NCBI RefSeq assembly: GCF_004339085.1
Contig: NZ_SMFX01000001.1
Span: 2,239,413-2,303,412, forward strand
Length of the DNA stretch: 64,000 bases
Reading direction: 5' to 3'
From: Thiogranum longum
GTDB taxonomy: Bacteria; Pseudomonadota; Gammaproteobacteria; DSM-19610
How positions within the stretch are numbered: position 1 is the stretch's first letter; every line of letters starts with the position of its first letter. A program made the position numbers and the translations under genes. The notes beneath the pieces were generated by a model that saw nothing but the letters and a program-made list of their open reading frames with translations, was not told where the DNA came from and did not search any database. Below are positions 34,849 to 43,953 of this stretch, piece after piece.

Positions 34849-37056
34849 TCAGGTTTTGCGACGCACTTCGATAATGTTGGGTAATTGGCCGATACGGCTG
34901 AGTATGCGACTCAGTTGTCCGATATCAGTTACCTCGACATGTAAATCCATACGTGCAATCAGTTCTTTTCCGTCAGTATTGGTGCTGATGCCCGTGACGT
35001 TTATCCTGTCATTGGCGAGTACCGCAGTGACGTCACGAAGCAGCCCCGGCCGATCATAGGCCTGGATGCGAATATCCACCGGGAACACACGATCCGGCAA
35101 CGCCCCCCACTCGACTTCTATGAGCCGGTCACGATCTTCTTCCTTGAGACGCAACACATTAGAGCAGTCACTGCGATGAATCGTGACACCTCGCCCACGT
35201 GTAATATAACCCACGATTGAATCGTTGGGCACCGGGTTACAGCAACGTGCTGTCGTGGTGAGCAGATTACCTACGCCCAGTATACGGAAGCCGTCCTGTG
35301 TTCCCTTTTCATTACGCCTTCCGGTTGTCGGCAGGGTAAGTGGCTCGTCTTCTGTGCGTTCCAGATCAAGCAGGACACTGACAACCTGGCCATAGGGCAG
35401 ATCGCCGCGCCCCAACGACGCCATCAGACTATCGACATTACTGAAGTTGAGTTTTTCAGCAACTTCAGCCATGCGCTTTGCTGACAGGCCCAGGCGATGC
35501 AGTTCACGCTCCAGTGCCGTACGGCCAGCCGCAATATTGATTTCCCGGTCCTGTAATTTGATCCAGTGCCGCACCTTGGCGCGGGCACGGGAAGTCTTGA
35601 GATAACCCAGGTGCGGGTTCAGCCAGTCGCGACTGGGGTGTGCCTGGCGTGCGGTCAACACTTCAACCTGTTCGCCGTTTTTGAGCACATAGTTAAGTGG
35701 CACAATCCGGCCATTGACCTTCACACCACGACAGCGATGTCCGACATCAGTATGAATGTGGTAGGCAAAGTCCAGTGCTGTCGCACCCGCCGGCATATCA
35801 ATGACCTCACCCTGTGGCGTCAGCGCATAAACCCGCTCCTCGACAGATTCTGATTTAAAGCGATCGACAAATTCGTGTGCCGAGGGCTCTTCATCCTTCC
35901 ATTCCAGCAGCTGGCGCAGCCAGGCAATCTTTTTCTCGAAACCTTCGTCATAGCGCGAACCTTCCTTGTAGCGCCAGTGCGCAGCAATCCCCAGCTCCGC
36001 GTGCTCGTGCATTTCACGGGTGCGGATCTGTACTTCCACCGGCTTGCCCTCGGGGCCAATCACAGCGGTATGCAGTGACCTGTAATTGTTGGCCTTGGGA
36101 TTGGCAATGTAGTCATCGAACTCGTGCGGCACATGTCGCCACAGACCGTGCACAATGCCCAGCACGGTGTAACACTCGGCCGTCGTGTCCACCAGCACGC
36201 GAACGGCCTGGACATCGAAAATCTGGTGAAAGTCGACATTCTTGCGACGCATCTTCCGCCAGATACTGTAGATGTGCTTTGGCCTGCCCACCACATCGGC
36301 CTGGATTCCGGCACGATCGAATTCCTCGATCAGGCTTTCCTTGACCAGTTCGATGTGCCGCTCGCGGTCTATGCGGCGACCGTCCAGCAGTGCAGCGATA
36401 CGGTGATAGGCATCAGCATCGAGGTAGCGTAACGCCAGGTCTTCGAGCTCCCACTTGACCTGCCAGATACCCAACCGGTTAGCGAGCGGGGAATAAATAT
36501 CCAGTGTCTCGCGGGCTATACGCTTTTGCCGCTCTTCGCTGAGGTGGCGCAGGGTGCGCATGTTATGCAAGCGGTCCGCAAGCTTGATGAGTACCACGCG
36601 AACATCTTCCGCCATCGCCAGCAACAATTTTCGCACATTCTCGGCACGACCATGATCGAGTTGCTGCTGTAGTGACAGGGGCTCACGGATTTCACTGATG
36701 CGACCCATTTTGGTGACACCATCCACCAGGTGTGCCACCTTTTCACCAAACTCCTCACGGATATCATCGAGACTGACATCCGTGTCCTCTACCACATCAT
36801 GCAATACGGCGGCAGTAACGGCCTCATGGTCAAGCTGAAGATGATGGACGATTTCGGCGACGGCCAGGCAGTGCACAAGATAAGGTTCACCGGAAGCGCG
36901 GGTCTGGTCACGGTGTGCTTTTTGCGCACGATCAAGCGCAGCACGAATCATCTGCTGTGCAGATTCATCGCGTCCAAAGCTGACTGACGACAACCAGGCA
37001 TCCACATCCGGCAATTGCCCGTCGTTCGACGTCGTGGTTTCCGCGCGCGCTACCAT
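34849..37056 (-). CDS. relA: RelA-class (p)ppGpp synthetase with an intact hydrolase HD site
   Basis: The 735-residue protein has HD hydrolase, synthetase, TGS and ACT domains in order. The C-terminal half is RelA-like (PSRDWLNPHLGYLKTSRARAK), and the synthetase carries the acidic EFDD at 312-315 that marks RelA rather than the basic RxKD of SpoT. Unusually, the hydrolase residues that E. coli RelA has lost are all here: Arg53, His62, His86-Asp87, Glu90-Asp91 (HDVVEDT) and Asn165 (ADRLHNMRTL). The enzyme may therefore both make and break (p)ppGpp. It is a single gene next to tRNA-Arg. Confidence 0.9.
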   Translation of the reverse strand: MVARAETTTSNDGQLPDVDAWLSSVSFGRDESAQQMIRAALDRAQKAHRDQTRASGEPYLVHCLAVAEIVHHLQLDHEAVTAAVLHDVVEDTDVSLDDIREEFGEKVAHLVDGVTKMGRISEIREPLSLQQQLDHGRAENVRKLLLAMAEDVRVVLIKLADRLHNMRTLRHLSEERQKRIARETLDIYSPLANRLGIWQVKWELEDLALRYLDADAYHRIAALLDGRRIDRERHIELVKESLIEEFDRAGIQADVVGRPKHIYSIWRKMRRKNVDFHQIFDVQAVRVLVDTTAECYTVLGIVHGLWRHVPHEFDDYIANPKANNYRSLHTAVIGPEGKPVEVQIRTREMHEHAELGIAAHWRYKEGSRYDEGFEKKIAWLRQLLEWKDEEPSAHEFVDRFKSESVEERVYALTPQGEVIDMPAGATALDFAYHIHTDVGHRCRGVKVNGRIVPLNYVLKNGEQVEVLTARQAHPSRDWLNPHLGYLKTSRARAKVRHWIKLQDREINIAAGRTALERELHRLGLSAKRMAEVAEKLNFSNVDSLMASLGRGDLPYGQVVSVLLDLERTEDEPLTLPTTGRRNEKGTQDGFRILGVGNLLTTTARCCNPVPNDSIVGYITRGRGVTIHRSDCSNVLRLKEEDRDRLIEVEWGALPDRVFPVDIRIQAYDRPGLLRDVTAVLANDRINVTGISTNTDGKELIARMDLHVEVTDIGQLSRILSRIGQLPNIIEVRRKT

Positions 37057-37093: not shown

Positions 37094-37714
37094 CTATTCA
37101 TTGCCCGCGTCAGTGGCTTTCAAATCCCCGATTAACCGTTCAAATATCTGTTCCAGGCTCTTCCGCATGGCATCAGCCAAGGCGTGCATATCGCCGCTGC
37201 GCGATGAAGTCTGCTGACGATAGACCTTCGTCCATAATGATTTCCCATCACGGGTTGAGTGCAGGACAGCTTCCAGCTCAATATCTGCAAGTGCCCGCCC
37301 CGACTCGACCAGCGACTCGAAACGAAGCACTCTCACAGCGAGCTCGTAACGGAACTGCGGGCGCTTGCCCTCCGTTTCAACCCGGTCTGCGACACCACTC
37401 TGGCGAAGTGTTTCCAGCAGCGCTTGCTGGATCATGCGAGGAGGCTGGTCCGCCCAGAACTCATAATGGTAGCGTCTCAGCTCAAGGGGTCTGTCGGCAT
37501 GCCGGTAGAGTATTGCCCGGCCGTTGCGCAGCGGGTCGGCTTCGACACGGCCAACCAAAAGCCCACCTGTCAACGACGGCTGCGCCTGCACCGCAGGGCT
37601 GGAAAGACCGATTTCATAAAAGCGATCCTCGGGTGCCGGCACGCCGGCCGAACAGGCGGCAAGCACAAGCAGCACCAGGCCCACGGCAACAGACCTGCAT
37701 AACCCGTAATGCAT
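37094..37714 (-). CDS. ABC-type transport auxiliary lipoprotein of the MCE operon
   Basis: The start at 37714 (MHYGLCRSVAV) is preceded by GAGGAGAGAGGG. The 206-residue product has a lipobox (LAAC) and the same fold as PqiC: DRFYEIGLSSPAVQ, LLVGRVEADPLRNGRAILYR, QPPRMIQQALLETLRQ. It should be the outer-membrane partner of the MCE transporter encoded upstream. A family B repeat sits between this gene and the mlaD-like gene. Confidence 0.85.
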   Translation of the reverse strand: MHYGLCRSVAVGLVLLVLAACSAGVPAPEDRFYEIGLSSPAVQAQPSLTGGLLVGRVEADPLRNGRAILYRHADRPLELRRYHYEFWADQPPRMIQQALLETLRQSGVADRVETEGKRPQFRYELAVRVLRFESLVESGRALADIELEAVLHSTRDGKSLWTKVYRQQTSSRSGDMHALADAMRKSLEQIFERLIGDLKATDAGNE

Positions 37715-37770
37715 CCCTCTCTCCTCATGCAGATGTAACCTGCTTCTATCATGCCGGCACATCCTGCTTC

Positions 37771-37838
37771 CGTCATCCCGGCGAATGCCGGTATCCGGAA
37801 AGCCCGCAGCCATAGATACCGGCTTGCGCCGGTATGAT
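37771..37838. repeat. Inverted repeat, family B, copy 2
   Basis: The arms 37771-37795 (CGTCATCCCGGCGAATGCCG...) and about 37815-37838 (ATACCGGCTTGCGCCGGTAT) have the same CCGG-cored layout as 4397-4464. It lies inside an operon, between the mlaD-like gene and its lipoprotein gene. Confidence 0.65.
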
Positions 37839-37856
37839 GTAGCCGTGGTATTTTCT

Positions 37857-38807
37857 CTAGCGGTCACGCTGCACCCCCTTGTCTCTGGGCGCCGAGCCAC
37901 CCAGCAAGGTGCCGGGGTTATCCCGGATCTTGCGACTGAACTCGTTCATATTCCGACTCGTGTCATCCATGTTCTGCAGGATACCGCTGCTGTAACGCGA
38001 CACCTGCTCCAGGATATGTCTTAGCTCTGCAGTGGCCTGCTGCATATCGGGACCACTCTCACTGACCAGGCCATCCAGCTTCGCCATCAACACCTGTGCA
38101 TCGCGCTTCACTTCGGTGAGACCTGCCGTCAGTTTGCTGAGATCAGCAGAAGCCTGATCGATATTTGTCAAAATACGTTTGGCCTTGCGTTCGCCCTCTT
38201 CATCCATAATGCCGGAAAGGTGCGTTGCACTCTCGTTGAGACGTCCGACCAGATGCTCCACATCCGACACGATAACGGGTACACGGCTCTCGAGGACACC
38301 GCCAACCTGCTGCACTGTCTGGTTGAGCGACTCGATCAGGGGACGTATTGCATTCTCGCTCAGGTCACCGAAATCACCGGCAACCTCACCGATAACAGCA
38401 AACAGATCTATACCCTGCTCTCCCTTGATGAGACCGCCGGGTTCGAGGAATGTTGTGGAATGCCCTTCAGAAATATTAACGACCGTATCAGCAAGCAAGC
38501 CTTCAGAATAAATACGCGCAACGCTGTCAGAGGGAATCTCCCAGTCCTTTCTGAGTCCCAGCATGACACGATAGGCAATGCCTTCGTCGGTCCGCTCGGG
38601 CGCTATACCCTCGACCTTGCCAAGCACGTAACCTTCATAAGTCACCAGTGTGCCATTAGAAAGGCCCGCCACATTACGGTACTGCGTATAATAAATATCG
38701 CGCTCACCGGCACCTCCGCTGATCCGGTACAACGCCCAGAACAGAACACCTAGTCCCGCAAGAACAAACAGGCCCACCGCAAAATAGTTGATGGTATCGC
38801 GCTTCAA
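37857..38807 (-). CDS. mlaD: MlaD-like MCE-domain substrate-binding protein
   Basis: The 316-residue protein has an N-terminal transmembrane helix (about 8-28, YFAVGLFVLAGLGVLFWALY) and one MCE domain (about 38-120, TQYRNVAGLSNGTLVTYEGYVLGKVEGI). A long helical C-terminal part follows. The start is TTG, overlapping the TGA of the ATPase gene (TTGA). MlaD-type proteins form periplasmic rings that pass phospholipids between permease and outer membrane. It is longer than E. coli MlaD (183 residues). Confidence 0.9.
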   Translation of the reverse strand: MKRDTINYFAVGLFVLAGLGVLFWALYRISGGAGERDIYYTQYRNVAGLSNGTLVTYEGYVLGKVEGIAPERTDEGIAYRVMLGLRKDWEIPSDSVARIYSEGLLADTVVNISEGHSTTFLEPGGLIKGEQGIDLFAVIGEVAGDFGDLSENAIRPLIESLNQTVQQVGGVLESRVPVIVSDVEHLVGRLNESATHLSGIMDEEGERKAKRILTNIDQASADLSKLTAGLTEVKRDAQVLMAKLDGLVSESGPDMQQATAELRHILEQVSRYSSGILQNMDDTSRNMNEFSRKIRDNPGTLLGGSAPRDKGVQRDR

Positions 38808-39628
38808 AACCGCATCGCTCCCTCGGTAAGCCGGTGCAGGTAGTCATCGGCATCGACTGGTTCATCCTCTGATGTTCGTGTCAGCAGGTTACGTATCCTC
38901 GGATTATCAGAGTTGCGCACTTCTTCCACACTACCAACCATAAGGATGCGCCCGCGATCCAGTACCGTGATGCGGTCCGCTATTTTAAAAGCGCTGTCCA
39001 GCTCGTGGGTAACGACAACAATGGATACCGGCATGGCCTCACGAATACGCAAAATCAGGTTATCAAGATCTGCTGCCACGACCGGGTCCAGTCCGGCAGA
39101 GGGCTCATCGAAAAAAAGAATTCCAGGATCCATTACGATCGCGCGCGCCAGCGCAGCACGTTTGATCATGCCGCCGGAAAGTTGTGCCGGCATCAGGTGC
39201 TCATAACCGGCCATGTTAACGACTTCGAGCTTCATCCGGCTCATGATCTTCATGGTGTTCTCATCAAGCGCAGTATGTTCACGCAGTGGCATACGCACGT
39301 TTTCACCCACCGTCATGGAATTGAACAACGCCCCGCCCTGAAACGACACACCGATTCTCTTGCGGATCTCCATCCATTCATGACTGCTCAGCGAATTGAC
39401 ACATTTCCCGAACAAGCGGACTTCACCACTATCGGCGCGGTGCAGACCAAGAAGATAGCGCAACAGGGTGGACTTTCCGGAGCCGCTCCCGCCCATGATG
39501 ACCATAATTTCCCCGGGGGCTACTGACAATGAAACATCATCCAGAATTTTCTGGTCTCCATAGTAGGTTACGAGGTTATCAACCTCGATAACCGGCTGTG
39601 TCGATGTTTCTGGAAGTGTCGTATTCAT
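38804..39628 (-). CDS. mlaF: MlaF-like ABC transporter ATPase
   Basis: The 274-residue ATPase has Walker A GGSGSGKST, the signature LSGGM and Walker B ILFFDEPSAGLDP, with the H-loop in VVTHELDS. This is the MlaF/MKL branch that powers MCE lipid transport. It is coupled to the permease gene (one-base gap) and the MCE gene (4-nt overlap). Confidence 0.94.
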   Translation of the reverse strand: MNTTLPETSTQPVIEVDNLVTYYGDQKILDDVSLSVAPGEIMVIMGGSGSGKSTLLRYLLGLHRADSGEVRLFGKCVNSLSSHEWMEIRKRIGVSFQGGALFNSMTVGENVRMPLREHTALDENTMKIMSRMKLEVVNMAGYEHLMPAQLSGGMIKRAALARAIVMDPGILFFDEPSAGLDPVVAADLDNLILRIREAMPVSIVVVTHELDSAFKIADRITVLDRGRILMVGSVEEVRNSDNPRIRNLLTRTSEDEPVDADDYLHRLTEGAMRF

Positions 39629-39629
39629 C

Positions 39630-40445
39630 TCAACGGCTCAGGAAAAAAGTGAATATCATGTCTGCAACAACAATTGCCGCAATACAGAGTACGACAGACC
39701 GCGTCGTGGCACGGCCCAGCCCCTCGGCCCCGCCACTGGCATTAAAACCATTACTGGTTGCCACCAGAGTGATCAGAACCGCAAACACCAGGCTTTTGAT
39801 GAGTCCCTGGAAAATATCACCCGGAACCAGCTCACTGAAAACGCGTATCGCATAGGTATCAAGTGTTATGTGCAGCTCGATAACAGCAATAACGCCACCA
39901 CCCAGGATTGCCATGGCATCCGAGAGGATGGACAACATCGGCATCATAACCAACATTGCTGCCAGAATAGGTGACACCAGGTAGCGTACCGGCGACACCC
40001 CCATGACACGTAATGCATCAATCTCCTGCGCCATCTGCATGGTGCCAATGCGGGCGGCAATAGCCGAGCCAGAGCGGCCGGCAACTACAATGCCCGCTAT
40101 CAATACGCCGAACTCACGCGTCACCGACATGGCAATGCCTGATACAACCTGTGATTCGGCACCGAAGTCGCGCAGTGTGTAAATACCCTGCATGGCCATC
40201 ATTGCACCATTGGCAAACGCCAGTATGATCACGACAGGAACCGCCTGCACACCGATGGTCATCATTTCCTGGACAATTGCACTCAGCCGTACGCGTTGCT
40301 GTCGCCAGCGTCCTGCCAGCAACCAGAACACACTTTCAATCAGCAATGCAGCGCCGTAGCCGAAGTCCTCGACACCGGATACAAACTTCCTTCCCACCTT
40401 TTCTGTCAACAGGCGAAAACGGTTTGCGCTGATTTCAGCCGCCAT
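39630..40445 (-). CDS. mlaE: MlaE-like ABC permease
   Basis: The 271-residue permease has five or six membrane segments and the MlaE signature (MAMQGIYTLRDFGAESQVVSG, GRSGSAIAARIGTMQMAQEIDALRVMGVSP). The start at ATG 40445 overlaps the STAS gene by 11 nt; an upstream in-frame start at 40493 is possible. The N-terminus has an extra soluble stretch of about 40 residues. Confidence 0.93.
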   Translation of the reverse strand: MAAEISANRFRLLTEKVGRKFVSGVEDFGYGAALLIESVFWLLAGRWRQQRVRLSAIVQEMMTIGVQAVPVVIILAFANGAMMAMQGIYTLRDFGAESQVVSGIAMSVTREFGVLIAGIVVAGRSGSAIAARIGTMQMAQEIDALRVMGVSPVRYLVSPILAAMLVMMPMLSILSDAMAILGGGVIAVIELHITLDTYAIRVFSELVPGDIFQGLIKSLVFAVLITLVATSNGFNASGGAEGLGRATTRSVVLCIAAIVVADMIFTFFLSR

Positions 40446-40767
40446 CTTCCAGCCGCTCGTCCAGTGAGGCATAAATGGTGAAGACCTGATCAAGTCGTGC
40501 CAGTCGTAATACGCTCATGGCTGCCTCGCTCACACCTACCAGGCCAAATTCCAGGTCATTGGTACGTGCGTACTGGAACCCTTCAACCAGACTGGCGACG
40601 CCTGAACTGTCGATATAGGCAACATCAGACAGATCCACCATGACATGATGCTTCTTCTTCAGGTTGTTCAGAATCACCTTGCGCGCATCCGGCGAATTAT
40701 TCAGATCAATTTCACCGTTCAGCAAGACAACAGAAAAACCCTGCCTGTCTTCAACCGGAAATGTCAT
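40435..40767 (-). CDS. STAS-domain protein (MlaB- / anti-anti-sigma-like)
   Basis: The 110-residue protein is a single STAS domain with the motif YIDSSGVASL at 51-60, that is, a phosphorylatable Ser pair as in SpoIIAA/RsbV. In canonical mla operons a STAS protein (MlaB) binds the ATPase and is needed for its activity. Here the gene directly precedes the permease and directly follows a GHKL kinase-type gene with a 17-nt overlap. A role as a switch on the transporter is inferred. Confidence 0.88.
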   Translation of the reverse strand: MTFPVEDRQGFSVVLLNGEIDLNNSPDARKVILNNLKKKHHVMVDLSDVAYIDSSGVASLVEGFQYARTNDLEFGLVGVSEAAMSVLRLARLDQVFTIYASLDERLEDGG

Positions 40768-41200
40768 TACCTTCTCCCTGTTCCCTGGTAAACAATTTCA
40801 TCTGGAAAACATTACCGCCACCACGGGGTGGTTCCAGAAACCCGCATTCATCCATCAGGCTGTTAATGAGATAAACCCCGAGACCACCCGGGCGAATATC
40901 GTCAAGCTCACGTGAACGCACCTGTTCGACATCAATCGCATCGGCGTAATCCCTGACGCGCATCACCAATGCATCCTGTTCCTGCAATACACTGACATCG
41001 ATCTGCCCGTCGGGGTTCATGCCGTAGGCGTGCTGGATAATATTCATGCATGCCTCATTGACGGCCAGCACCATAGCTTCCGTCTGCGACTCATCCAGAC
41101 CCGCAAGATCTGCCGTGTCCCGCATTACGCTTCGTAACAGCCGTAACCGGCTCGCTCGTGAGCAGAAACTGACTGTCACCAGCAGTTCGCCACACTCCAT
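40751..41200 (-). CDS. GHKL (RsbW/SpoIIAB-type) serine kinase / anti-sigma-like
   Basis: The 149-residue HATPase has an N-box NEACMNIIQHAYG and a GGLGVYLINSLMDE G-box, as in anti-sigma-factor kinases. There is no receiver or histidine phosphorylation site. ATG 41200 (MECGELLVTV) follows AAGGAACG; a TTG start 18 nt upstream overlaps the PP2C gene. The expected substrate is the STAS protein encoded immediately downstream. Confidence 0.88.
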   Translation of the reverse strand: MECGELLVTVSFCSRASRLRLLRSVMRDTADLAGLDESQTEAMVLAVNEACMNIIQHAYGMNPDGQIDVSVLQEQDALVMRVRDYADAIDVEQVRSRELDDIRPGGLGVYLINSLMDECGFLEPPRGGGNVFQMKLFTREQGEGNDISG

Positions 41201-41201
41201 G

Positions 41202-42947
41202 TTATTTCGTTCCTTCAATAATCATTAGTGTCAGATCGTCTTCAAGTACACGGTCAGTACCCACTACCGAATCGGTGATAGCCAGCGGCCGGTCGTCGAG
41301 CAGGATGCTGGCATGCTCTTTCAGTACCCGTATCAGTCCATCCCGCTCGAGCCGGCTGCCGTCTTCCATTCGTGCTTCCAGCAAGCCATCTGTATACAGG
41401 TATAGACAACCTCCCTGTAGTTCGAAAGTATTGTTGGGAAAAATACTGTCAGGACTGATGCCCAGTGGCGGGGCTTCGGCCGGGTACTCGGCAATAAGTG
41501 CCGCGCAGCCCATGTGTACAGCCGGCAAATGACCGGCGCTGGCCAGTATGACTTCACCGGAGGCCTGGTCCACCACTCCAGCCAGCATGGTGACGAACAT
41601 TCCGCGCACCGAAGTCTCGAAAATTTCCCGGTTGATCATTGCCAGCAACTTCCCGGGATCATGGATCCCCTTGCCAAGGCAACGAAACAAGCTGGCTGTT
41701 TTGGCCATGAGTAACGCGGCATTCATGCCTTTTCCGGATACATCCGCAAGACAGAATGCCATTTTGTTCTCGCCAACCCGGTAGTAATCGAAAAAATCGC
41801 CTGATACGGCCTTGGCCGACAGGTTCAGGCCGGTGATACCTGCCAGCTTTGTCCCTGCATCGGGTAACAGGCTCTTTTGTACTTCCCGCGCCAGCTCCAG
41901 TTCGCGGTTCAGTTCTGCTGCATAGCGGTCACGCTCACCCAGCGCCTGCTCGAGACGCCAGGTGAGTTCCTGGTAACTGAGATTTTCCTCGGCAAGACGC
42001 AGGTTGGCTTCGCGCAGCACCTGGTCGAAGGTCTGTTGCTCACCAACACGCATACCCATGGCCGTTGCCGCTTCAGCCACCGACTCCGCAACCTGCTGCA
42101 ACAGGTAATCACTGTGTTCGGGGCTGGCATCAAAATTCTCGGCCAGCAGGGCGCGCACTTGCTGGATAGCGACACGTTTATCCGCGCAGCGGTATACCGA
42201 CGCCATCCAGTCAGCACAGGTGGCAACCTTGCACAGCATCCGGGTCTGGCTATCGGTCTCCTCCGGTGGACCATCGTGGTGATAGCCCATGGCAAATGCC
42301 AGGTCCTGTGGCAGGTCCCAGCTATTCGCCAGCGTCAGCCCGACCTCGTCGTGGGTCGAGTGAAACAGGTCTATCTCAATATCGCGACGATCCCCGGGTG
42401 TGGATGCCGCCAGCCGGTCCCAGTGCTCCACTTGCTCTGGGTTGATGAACAACAACACCAGCAGACCGAAATCCTGCAACAGACCGGCCGTGAAACACTC
42501 CTCGGGGTCGAGGCTGGCAAGCTCGGCGAGCATGCGGGCACTGACAGCACGGCGCAAGGCATCTTCCCAGTACACGTCGATATTGAAACCGGGGATAGCG
42601 TCCGAACGGAGCGCATCGCGCATCGACAGGCACAGCATCAGGTTCCTCAGTGCCCGGTTACCCAGTACCGTAACGGCCCGGCTCACCGATTTCACCTGGC
42701 TGACCAGACCGAAATAAGCGGAATTGGAAATACGCAAAAGCTCGGCCGTCAGGACAGGGTCATTGGCCACCAGGTGCGCGAGATCCCGGCTGTCGACACC
42801 CGGGCGCGAACAGGCCTGCACAATACGAATGGCGTCCTTTGGGGGCGCGGGTAAGTCACTCGGCCGCACCGAATGTTCTGCAACGGTTTCTTCCATAACC
42901 TGTTGATCTGGCATCCTGGGGTTAATTTGCTCCACTTGTGAGCACAT
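41202..42947 (-). CDS. HDOD-PP2C (RsbU/SpoIIE-type) protein phosphatase
   Basis: The protein is about 580 residues. An N-terminal HDOD domain (about 30-250, LRISNSAYFGLVSQVKSVSRAVTVLG) is followed by a coiled coil (about 305-365). The SpoIIE-type PP2C phosphatase domain has its metal-binding acids in SGDFFDYY, LADVSGKGMNAALLM, and YTDGLLEARM plus EDDLTLMII. It should dephosphorylate the STAS protein. The start is uncertain between 42947, 42914 and a TTG at 42956. First gene of the operon. Confidence 0.88.
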   Translation of the reverse strand: MCSQVEQINPRMPDQQVMEETVAEHSVRPSDLPAPPKDAIRIVQACSRPGVDSRDLAHLVANDPVLTAELLRISNSAYFGLVSQVKSVSRAVTVLGNRALRNLMLCLSMRDALRSDAIPGFNIDVYWEDALRRAVSARMLAELASLDPEECFTAGLLQDFGLLVLLFINPEQVEHWDRLAASTPGDRRDIEIDLFHSTHDEVGLTLANSWDLPQDLAFAMGYHHDGPPEETDSQTRMLCKVATCADWMASVYRCADKRVAIQQVRALLAENFDASPEHSDYLLQQVAESVAEAATAMGMRVGEQQTFDQVLREANLRLAEENLSYQELTWRLEQALGERDRYAAELNRELELAREVQKSLLPDAGTKLAGITGLNLSAKAVSGDFFDYYRVGENKMAFCLADVSGKGMNAALLMAKTASLFRCLGKGIHDPGKLLAMINREIFETSVRGMFVTMLAGVVDQASGEVILASAGHLPAVHMGCAALIAEYPAEAPPLGISPDSIFPNNTFELQGGCLYLYTDGLLEARMEDGSRLERDGLIRVLKEHASILLDDRPLAITDSVVGTDRVLEDDLTLMIIEGTK

Positions 42948-43026: not shown

Positions 43027-43953
43027 TCAGATCAGAGACTCCAGTGTCGATGGAAACTGCTCTGCGGCCTCTTCGAAGGCAAAAAACAGCTCGTCTTCCG
43101 TCAAGCGAACCACTTCCAGCATGTTCTCGGGAATACTGATATCGGCACGAGGTGACCCGGCATAGTTACCCTGCTCTGATTCATTTACCAGGTGATTGGC
43201 GAGATACAGGATGTGTGACTCCATTCTGGCTGTTTCCGCCAGCTCCGGCTGATGGTGCCACTTGATAGAAAACACCAGTTCCTCAGGTAACTGCCACACA
43301 TCCATCAGGTGAGCCGCAACACTCGCATGACTGAAGCCAAAGCGGCTGATTTCCGACTCATACAGCACCTCTTCATCGCCATCCGCAACCAGCAGTAAAT
43401 CGCGCATGGCCGCGGGCCGCTGGTGATACAGCACCAGGCTACCAATATCGTGCATCAAGCCGGCAATGAACAGGCGTTCCGGATGCAGGACACTGGCACG
43501 CTCCGCCAGCGCACGTGCCAGCAGCCCGGTATAAACACTGTGCCGCCAGAATGTTTCCATGCTGACCAGTTCATTGGGAAGATTATTGAATGATTTGACA
43601 GTGGATATCGACAGCACCAGCTGGTACAGCTCGGCAGTACCTATCACAGTGATGGCACGACTGACCGTATCAATCTTGCGGCGGAACCGATAAAAGGCAC
43701 TGTTGGCCATTCTCAGCAGCCGGGTGGTGAGATTCGGGTCGACTGAAATAACGTTGGCTATGTCGGCGGCGCTGGTCGAAGGTGACTGGATCAGCTCGAA
43801 CATCCGCATACAAACATCCGGTGGAGAAACCAGGCCTTCCACATCGTCGAGAAGCGTGACGAGGGATTCCTGTTCCGGTGACTTTCTGGCAATCAGGTCA
43901 GGGCTGTTCATGGGCACACCGATGGTTATCGTTTCTACAGGTAGCGACGTCAC
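43027..43953 (-). CDS. HDOD-domain signalling protein
   Basis: The 308-residue protein has one HDOD domain (about 35-240, VDPNLTTRLLRMANSAFYRFRRKIDTVSRAITVIG). It keeps an HD-like pair (GLMHDIGSL) and HASVAAHLMDVWQLPEELV. HDOD proteins act as scaffolds in signalling and motility; an enzymatic activity is not established. It lies 70 nt upstream of the HDOD-PP2C gene on the same strand, so the two may be coregulated. The GTG start at 43953 could be replaced by ATG 43911. Confidence 0.85.
   Translation of the reverse strand: MTSLPVETITIGVPMNSPDLIARKSPEQESLVTLLDDVEGLVSPPDVCMRMFELIQSPSTSAADIANVISVDPNLTTRLLRMANSAFYRFRRKIDTVSRAITVIGTAELYQLVLSISTVKSFNNLPNELVSMETFWRHSVYTGLLARALAERASVLHPERLFIAGLMHDIGSLVLYHQRPAAMRDLLLVADGDEEVLYESEISRFGFSHASVAAHLMDVWQLPEELVFSIKWHHQPELAETARMESHILYLANHLVNESEQGNYAGSPRADISIPENMLEVVRLTEDELFFAFEEAAEQFPSTLESLI

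Follow-up and report, generated by a model that had tools for sequence, protein, structure and literature searches.

A kinase-phosphatase-STAS cassette linked to an Mla/Mpc-like lipid transporter operon in Thiogranum longum: a candidate partner switch

What do a phosphatase, a kinase and a STAS protein of the kind found in partner switches do at the head of a lipid transporter operon? The locus that raises this question lies in a 64,000-nucleotide stretch of the Thiogranum longum genome (contig NZ_SMFX01000001.1, forward-strand positions 2,239,413 to 2,303,412; the window), where seven minus-strand genes, all confirmed by Pfam and by reading of the sequence, encode these three proteins followed by an MlaE permease, an MlaF ATPase, an MCE protein and a lipoprotein. 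Transporters of this kind carry membrane lipids from one of the cell's two membranes to the other. We favor the reading in which the first three genes form an RsbU/RsbW/RsbV-type partner-switching module that has the Mla/Mpc-like ABC lipid transporter as its output, and place its probability at roughly 0.64. The observations that underlie it are the gene content, the linkage and co-occurrence of cassette and transporter, the intact catalytic and acceptor motifs, and the retention of a C-terminal clasp in MlaF.

Gene content of the operon

The first gene encodes an HDOD-PP2C phosphatase of the SpoIIE/RsbU type (41202-42947, minus strand as are all features below, ATG start; Pfam HDOD 1.1e-50, SpoIIE 4.8e-35), which is kept in the gammaproteobacterial relatives and in which the four metal-site motifs SGDFFDYY, ADVSGKG, YTDG and EDDLTL can be recognized by eye. 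It is followed, after a gap of 1 nucleotide (nt), by an RsbW/SpoIIAB-type GHKL serine kinase (40751-41200; Pfam HATPase_c_2 2.7e-27). The N-box NEACMNIIQHAY and the PGGLG box of the kinase are intact, and N48, E49, N53, D84 and G105-G108 are invariant among 21 relatives. The kinase is also the sole strong HATPase_c_2 match in the 2.9-Mb one-contig genome, the next best (1.6e-5) lying inside a 534-aa frame. The third gene, which overlaps the kinase gene by 17 nt, encodes an RsbV-type STAS protein (40435-40767; Pfam STAS 1.6e-18) that scores above the cut-off of TIGR00377, the anti-sigma-antagonist superfamily. Three parts expected of a partner switch are present, namely a sensor-bearing SpoIIE-type PP2C phosphatase, a GHKL kinase whose N and G boxes are both intact, and a STAS protein with a DSSG motif.

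The STAS gene overlaps by 11 nt that of a type 1 MlaE-family lipid ABC permease (39630-40445; Pfam MlaE 8e-68, TIGR00056 above cut-off), and a 1-nt gap separates the latter from the gene of an MlaF-type ABC ATPase (38804-39628; Pfam ABC_tran 3.8e-31), whose best PDB matches are MlaF chains. The MCE gene (37857-38807; Pfam MlaD 2.7e-10) overlaps that of MlaF by 4 nt and encodes a 316-aa protein with a single MCE domain and a long C-terminal helical part; permease, ATPase and MCE-domain protein belong to one operon. The last gene is that of a PqiC-type auxiliary lipoprotein (37094-37714; Pfam ABC_trans_aux 1e-15; lipobox LVLAAC). A long MCE protein accompanied by an ABC_trans_aux lipoprotein is a trait of the Mpc type. 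The sequence-only reading of the window had described seven genes joined by tiny overlaps or gaps; this is accurate for six of them, which are tightly packed, but the lipoprotein gene is set off by a 142-nt spacer with palindromic GCCGG repeats. Within the spacer, at 37778-37834, palindromic repeats of the form TACCGGC..GCCGG have 3 matches in the window where 0.07 are expected. In one relative (L049), the MCE and lipoprotein genes overlap and the spacer is absent. A second MlaE occurs in the genome only in a canonical mla operon (794-796 kb), which has its own MlaB, with the motif DSAG, and no adjoining kinase.

Linkage of cassette and transporter

That the cassette belongs with the transporter, as had been claimed from the window alone, is borne out by conserved linkage and co-occurrence; a check of adjacency in other genomes shows that the gene order is not unique to this one and is shared by Gamma- and Alphaproteobacteria. 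Relatives of the locus are found in Thiogranum/Thiohalobacter-like Gammaproteobacteria, and 19 of 20 loci fetched through the kinase show the arrangement of cassette and transporter genes seen in the window (one, L051, ends inside the phosphatase); the remaining locus, L067, holds the cassette and MlaF without a permease. The order is kept in other families at identities down to 38-58% for kinase and permease. A genome-wide kinase scan returned 550 relatives, and among the best 80 of these, STAS, MlaE, MlaF and MCE genes lie downstream of the kinase in 57 of the 65 loci that could be judged.

A survey that started from MlaE, and was therefore unbiased by the kinase query, covered 369 gammaproteobacterial and 385 alphaproteobacterial genomes. 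MlaE of the window type is found in 45 of the former, and of the 43 loci that could be assessed, 41 have the kinase immediately upstream of it; STAS is likewise seen in these 41, except in G024, where only the kinase and MlaE coordinates were compared. For the same MlaE type in the alphaproteobacteria, kinase and STAS are present at 12/12 assessable loci. The kinase co-occurs with this MlaE type in 43 of the 45 gammaproteobacterial genomes (Fisher p 3e-40 over the 369, phylogeny ignored). Starting instead from the kinase, the same 369 genomes contain 59 carriers, which divide into 41 with the window-type operon, 10 with a second transporter class, 3 cut by a contig end, 4 in which the cassette is unlinked and 1 with a different module. 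The cassette is linked to an mla-type transporter of either class in 51 of the 56 assessable kinase-bearing gammaproteobacteria. In a more distant MlaE class, all 16 loci have a STAS-MlaE fusion, evident from the motif in each case and backed by Pfam in two, and none has a kinase within its 1.5-kb flanks. Such a fusion is seen in no kinase-linked locus checked, and in the window STAS and MlaE are separate, overlapping genes. Since the same order recurs across Gamma- and Alphaproteobacteria, the arrangement is not due to chance.

The loci that depart from this order are informative as to what the cassette stays with. The second transporter class, MlaF-MlaE2-MlaD-MlaC/MlaA, is accompanied by the same cassette in L110, L311, L315, L318 and L313/L319/L323. 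Six orphan loci (L067, L088, L095, L115, L314 and L320, with L088 and L115 running to near the contig end) lack MlaE but group MlaF with kinase and STAS, and the genomes of L067, L088, L095 and L115 carry an MlaE-MlaD(-MlaA) operon elsewhere that is devoid of MlaF. Where operons are split, then, the cassette often remains with the ATPase. In six further genomes (L106, L112, L122, L131, L136 and L145), the cassette stands apart from the transporter, at a syntenic locus, nth-DUF1841-cassette-FHA-PPM, that lacks the transporter block. All six have an MlaF of the kinase-linked type elsewhere (hidden Markov model E 1e-121 to 1e-127) with the clasp intact, adjoining a type-2 MlaE and with no STAS beside it. 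We considered whether these FHA-linked cassettes refute the link, and rejected this, as the synteny identifies the same locus minus its transporter block and the matching MlaF is found elsewhere. L209 is the mirror case, with DUF1841 followed by the transporter and neither cassette at the locus nor kinase in the genome, and in G891 STAS lies with the transporter while the kinase is elsewhere. The public metagenome-assembled genome titles Klebsiella pneumoniae (L112) and Candidatus Marinimicrobia (L121) are probably wrong, as the loci resemble those of other Gamma- or Alphaproteobacteria. A possible third, independent wiring is seen in another proteobacterial family (L183-L186, L190 and L191), where a distant kinase-STAS pair and then ubiD lie downstream of a divergent permease/MCE/TPR-lipoprotein operon; it is absent in L182 and L187.

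These loci bear on the possibility that the cassette targets something else, such as a sigma or anti-sigma factor or a diguanylate cyclase, and only shares a transcript with the transporter, much as HsbR-HsbA in Pseudomonas has other partners. The STAS protein is indeed RsbV-like, some cassettes do lie apart from any transporter, and the genome contains 14 sigma-70 region-2 matches, so that a second target may exist. However, no sigma factor is encoded at 34-47 kb of the window, and conservation of the cassette spans two classes of transporter and two of Proteobacteria; the orphan loci hold STAS with MlaF, and the unlinked cassettes co-occur with clasp-bearing MlaF. We therefore regard a separate target as quite improbable.

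The STAS protein and its predicted place on MlaF

The acceptor motif of the window STAS protein reads Y-I-D-S54-S-G. Ser54 (codon 40606-40608) is the predicted phospho-acceptor, equivalent to Thr52 of E. coli MlaB and Ser58 of SpoIIAA. DSSG is found in 72/72 kinase-linked STAS proteins of a first set and in 112/112 of all complete ones, whereas the 16 kinase-free fused STAS domains have DTAG (14) or DTTG (2). In the AlphaFold2 (AF2) model (predicted local distance difference test score, pLDDT, 91.9), Ser54 starts helix 2, and the C-terminal helix is of the SpoIIAA type. In two alphaproteobacteria (L224:588-1492 and L225), tandem STAS genes, both with DSSG, lie between kinase and MlaE, possibly one for each partner.

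In E. coli, Thr52 is at the center of the MlaB interface with MlaF, and the C-terminal extension of MlaF occupies the MlaB-MlaF groove through Tyr261, Leu265 and Leu266 (PMC7367683). The window MlaF ends in D262-Y263-L-H-R-L267-T (38825-38845), which matches E. coli Tyr261/Leu265 and has the same Tyr/Leu+4 spacing. This Y...L clasp is kept in nearly all complete kinase-linked MlaF proteins and is absent from 16/16 MlaF proteins of the fused-STAS transporters; the canonical MlaF of the same genome carries DYREDLL. Judging from the comparison of loci, STAS most likely takes the place of MlaB on MlaF.

We infer docking of STAS on MlaF, phosphorylation of Ser54 and the polarity of the switch as steps of the following mechanism. 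Unphosphorylated STAS would dock on MlaF instead of MlaB, gripped by the C-terminal clasp, and would let the ATPase assemble with MlaE, such that transport is permitted. The dedicated kinase would phosphorylate Ser54, centrally placed on the docking face, causing STAS to be released and lipid transport to be turned off. Under the control of its sensor (HDOD here, GAF or a receiver elsewhere), the PP2C phosphatase would remove the phosphate and turn transport back on. In E. coli, MlaF needs MlaB to remain in the complex (PMC7367683, PMC5016091), and the T52E substitution in MlaB reduces or abolishes MlaF binding (PMC7367683). Kinase-linked loci never show a fused STAS, and in the class without the kinase the fusion is regular, which suggests that STAS must be able to leave.

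Several findings weigh against the partner-switch reading. The STAS protein fails the MlaB equivalog test (mlaB_1 26.9 bits against a cut-off of 90). Among solved structures it comes closest in fold to the anti-sigma antagonists RsbV and SpoIIAA (Z 16-17), with P. aeruginosa MlaB lower at Z 12.1, and it is on this account an RsbV-type protein in the position of MlaB and not an MlaB orthologue. Thus, of the earlier proposal that an MlaB-like STAS protein is switched by its own kinase and phosphatase, the link between cassette and transporter stands and the MlaB family membership does not. The linkage counts are inflated by phylogenetic non-independence. In 4 of the 56 gammaproteobacterial genomes the cassette is unlinked, and MlaF elsewhere was not checked in these; L120 encodes the phosphatase and the kinase but no STAS protein. 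G233 and G720 retain the transporter with no detectable kinase, so the switch is dispensable; that both have lost the clasp Tyr (replaced by F and H) counts in favor of the reading. Mean-field coevolution of STAS and MlaF, using paired rows only (114 pairs, effective number of sequences, Meff, ~85), gave no interpretable contacts. On the supporting side stands an AF2 model of the STAS-linker-MlaF chain obtained from L320 by reading the TAA between the two genes as Gly, which leaves a 51-residue disordered linker. The relative placement of the domains looks confident, because the predicted template-modeling score (pTM) of 0.77 is close to the ~0.80 that we assume to be the ceiling with such a linker (we would expect ~0.55 if the domains float), but the chain is artificial, its pose uninspected and a negative control absent, and we treat the result as suggestive. 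A further point against the reading is that E. coli MlaB T52A keeps MlaF binding yet abolishes ATPase activity (PMC5016091, PMC7367683).

Because T52A binds and still kills the ATPase, the acceptor site need not work by simple release, and an allosteric version is conceivable. STAS would then be a permanent subunit of MlaF, and phosphorylation would tune the ATPase without release, which amounts to phospho-control without a partner switch. Retention of the clasp fits a stable complex, and in type 2 loci STAS and MlaF are direct neighbors. A permanent subunit is harder to reconcile with the lowered MlaF binding of T52E, and with the lack of any MlaE fusion among kinase-linked STAS proteins when the kinase-free class is regularly fused, a sign that STAS may need to be releasable. 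We consider this alternative unlikely, though it deserves to be taken seriously, and retain the partner switch.

The input side of the cassette is more variable than its output. The sequence-only reading had raised a possible c-di-GMP or stress input through HDOD; among relatives, GAF or receiver domains replace HDOD in the phosphatase and the output is unchanged. In 26 loci (L083-L143), mostly of Rhodospirillales, PP2C and kinase form one bifunctional polypeptide, with GAF and not HDOD as the sensor in those tested; this fusion argues that the two act together. We take the fusion in these alphaproteobacterial relatives to resemble HsbR. A search for plasmid carriage of the kinase gave no match. 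Partner switches are symmetric in principle, and HDOD, GAF and receiver sensors could combine several inputs. Information might flow in reverse, with MlaF titrating STAS such that kinase and phosphatase, and through them a downstream partner, would sense the lipid state or how far the transporter is assembled. No conserved downstream regulator is present in the cassette neighborhoods examined, and we hold this flow to be very improbable.

Neighboring genes, known systems and significance

A RelA/SpoT-type gene (34849-37056, same strand) begins 37 nt after the lipoprotein gene, and the two are also neighbors throughout the genus and in L092; a tie of the operon to the stringent response is possible. 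Just upstream of the operon lie a second, stand-alone HDOD protein (43027-43953) and a divergent DUF1631 gene, both of which are kept in most genus-level loci.

The closest transporter for comparison is E. coli MlaFEDB, which likewise has MlaE, a clasp-bearing MlaF, an MCE protein and a separate STAS protein with Thr52 at the matching acceptor position, but whose MlaB has no known kinase or phosphatase (PMC7367683, PMC5016091). The fifth strand and the last helix are also missing from E. coli MlaB, and the E. coli system uses MlaC/MlaA where the window has a PqiC-type lipoprotein. In Brucella, the four-gene operon of Mpc, described as an Mla-Pqi chimera, likewise encodes STAS, MlaE, MlaF and an MCE protein of the long kind; there, however, MpcE joins STAS and MlaE in one protein, and the paper mentions no kinase (PMC12436622). 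The fused-type loci examined here, unlike the window operon, combine DTAG/DTTG motifs with the lack of a clasp and of a nearby kinase.

On the side of the switch, the B. subtilis modules RsbU/RsbW/RsbV and SpoIIE/SpoIIAB/SpoIIAA have the same PP2C phosphatase, GHKL kinase and Ser-phosphorylatable STAS protein, with the nearest STAS fold. Their output is a kinase-bound sigma factor, whereas in the window none is linked and a lipid ABC transporter stands in its place. The P. aeruginosa HsbR-HsbA and SiaABC systems are proteobacterial phosphatase/kinase switches with biofilm, RpoS and cyclic di-GMP outputs, and have no transporter target (PMC6482189, PMC5085249, PMC7647112). No prior report of wiring between such a kinase and a transporter was found in the literature searched, with preprints and many subscription journals outside its scope, and priority is not certain.

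Phosphoregulation of MlaB was proposed in eLife in 2016 and 2020 with the kinase not known (PMC5016091, PMC7367683), and the 2020 paper left the regulation of active MlaB as an open question (PMC7367683). The operon described here offers a natural, conserved kinase and phosphatase beside the transporter, and the question is therefore directly testable. We think it likely that widespread proteobacterial lipid ABC transporters are switched by reversible Ser phosphorylation of a STAS subunit, through a dedicated kinase and sensor-phosphatase, with a membrane transporter and not transcription as the output. If this is true, there would be several sensor types (HDOD, GAF and receiver) whose signals could be found, and partner switching would gain an acute role in governing membrane lipid traffic and the homeostasis of the outer membrane.

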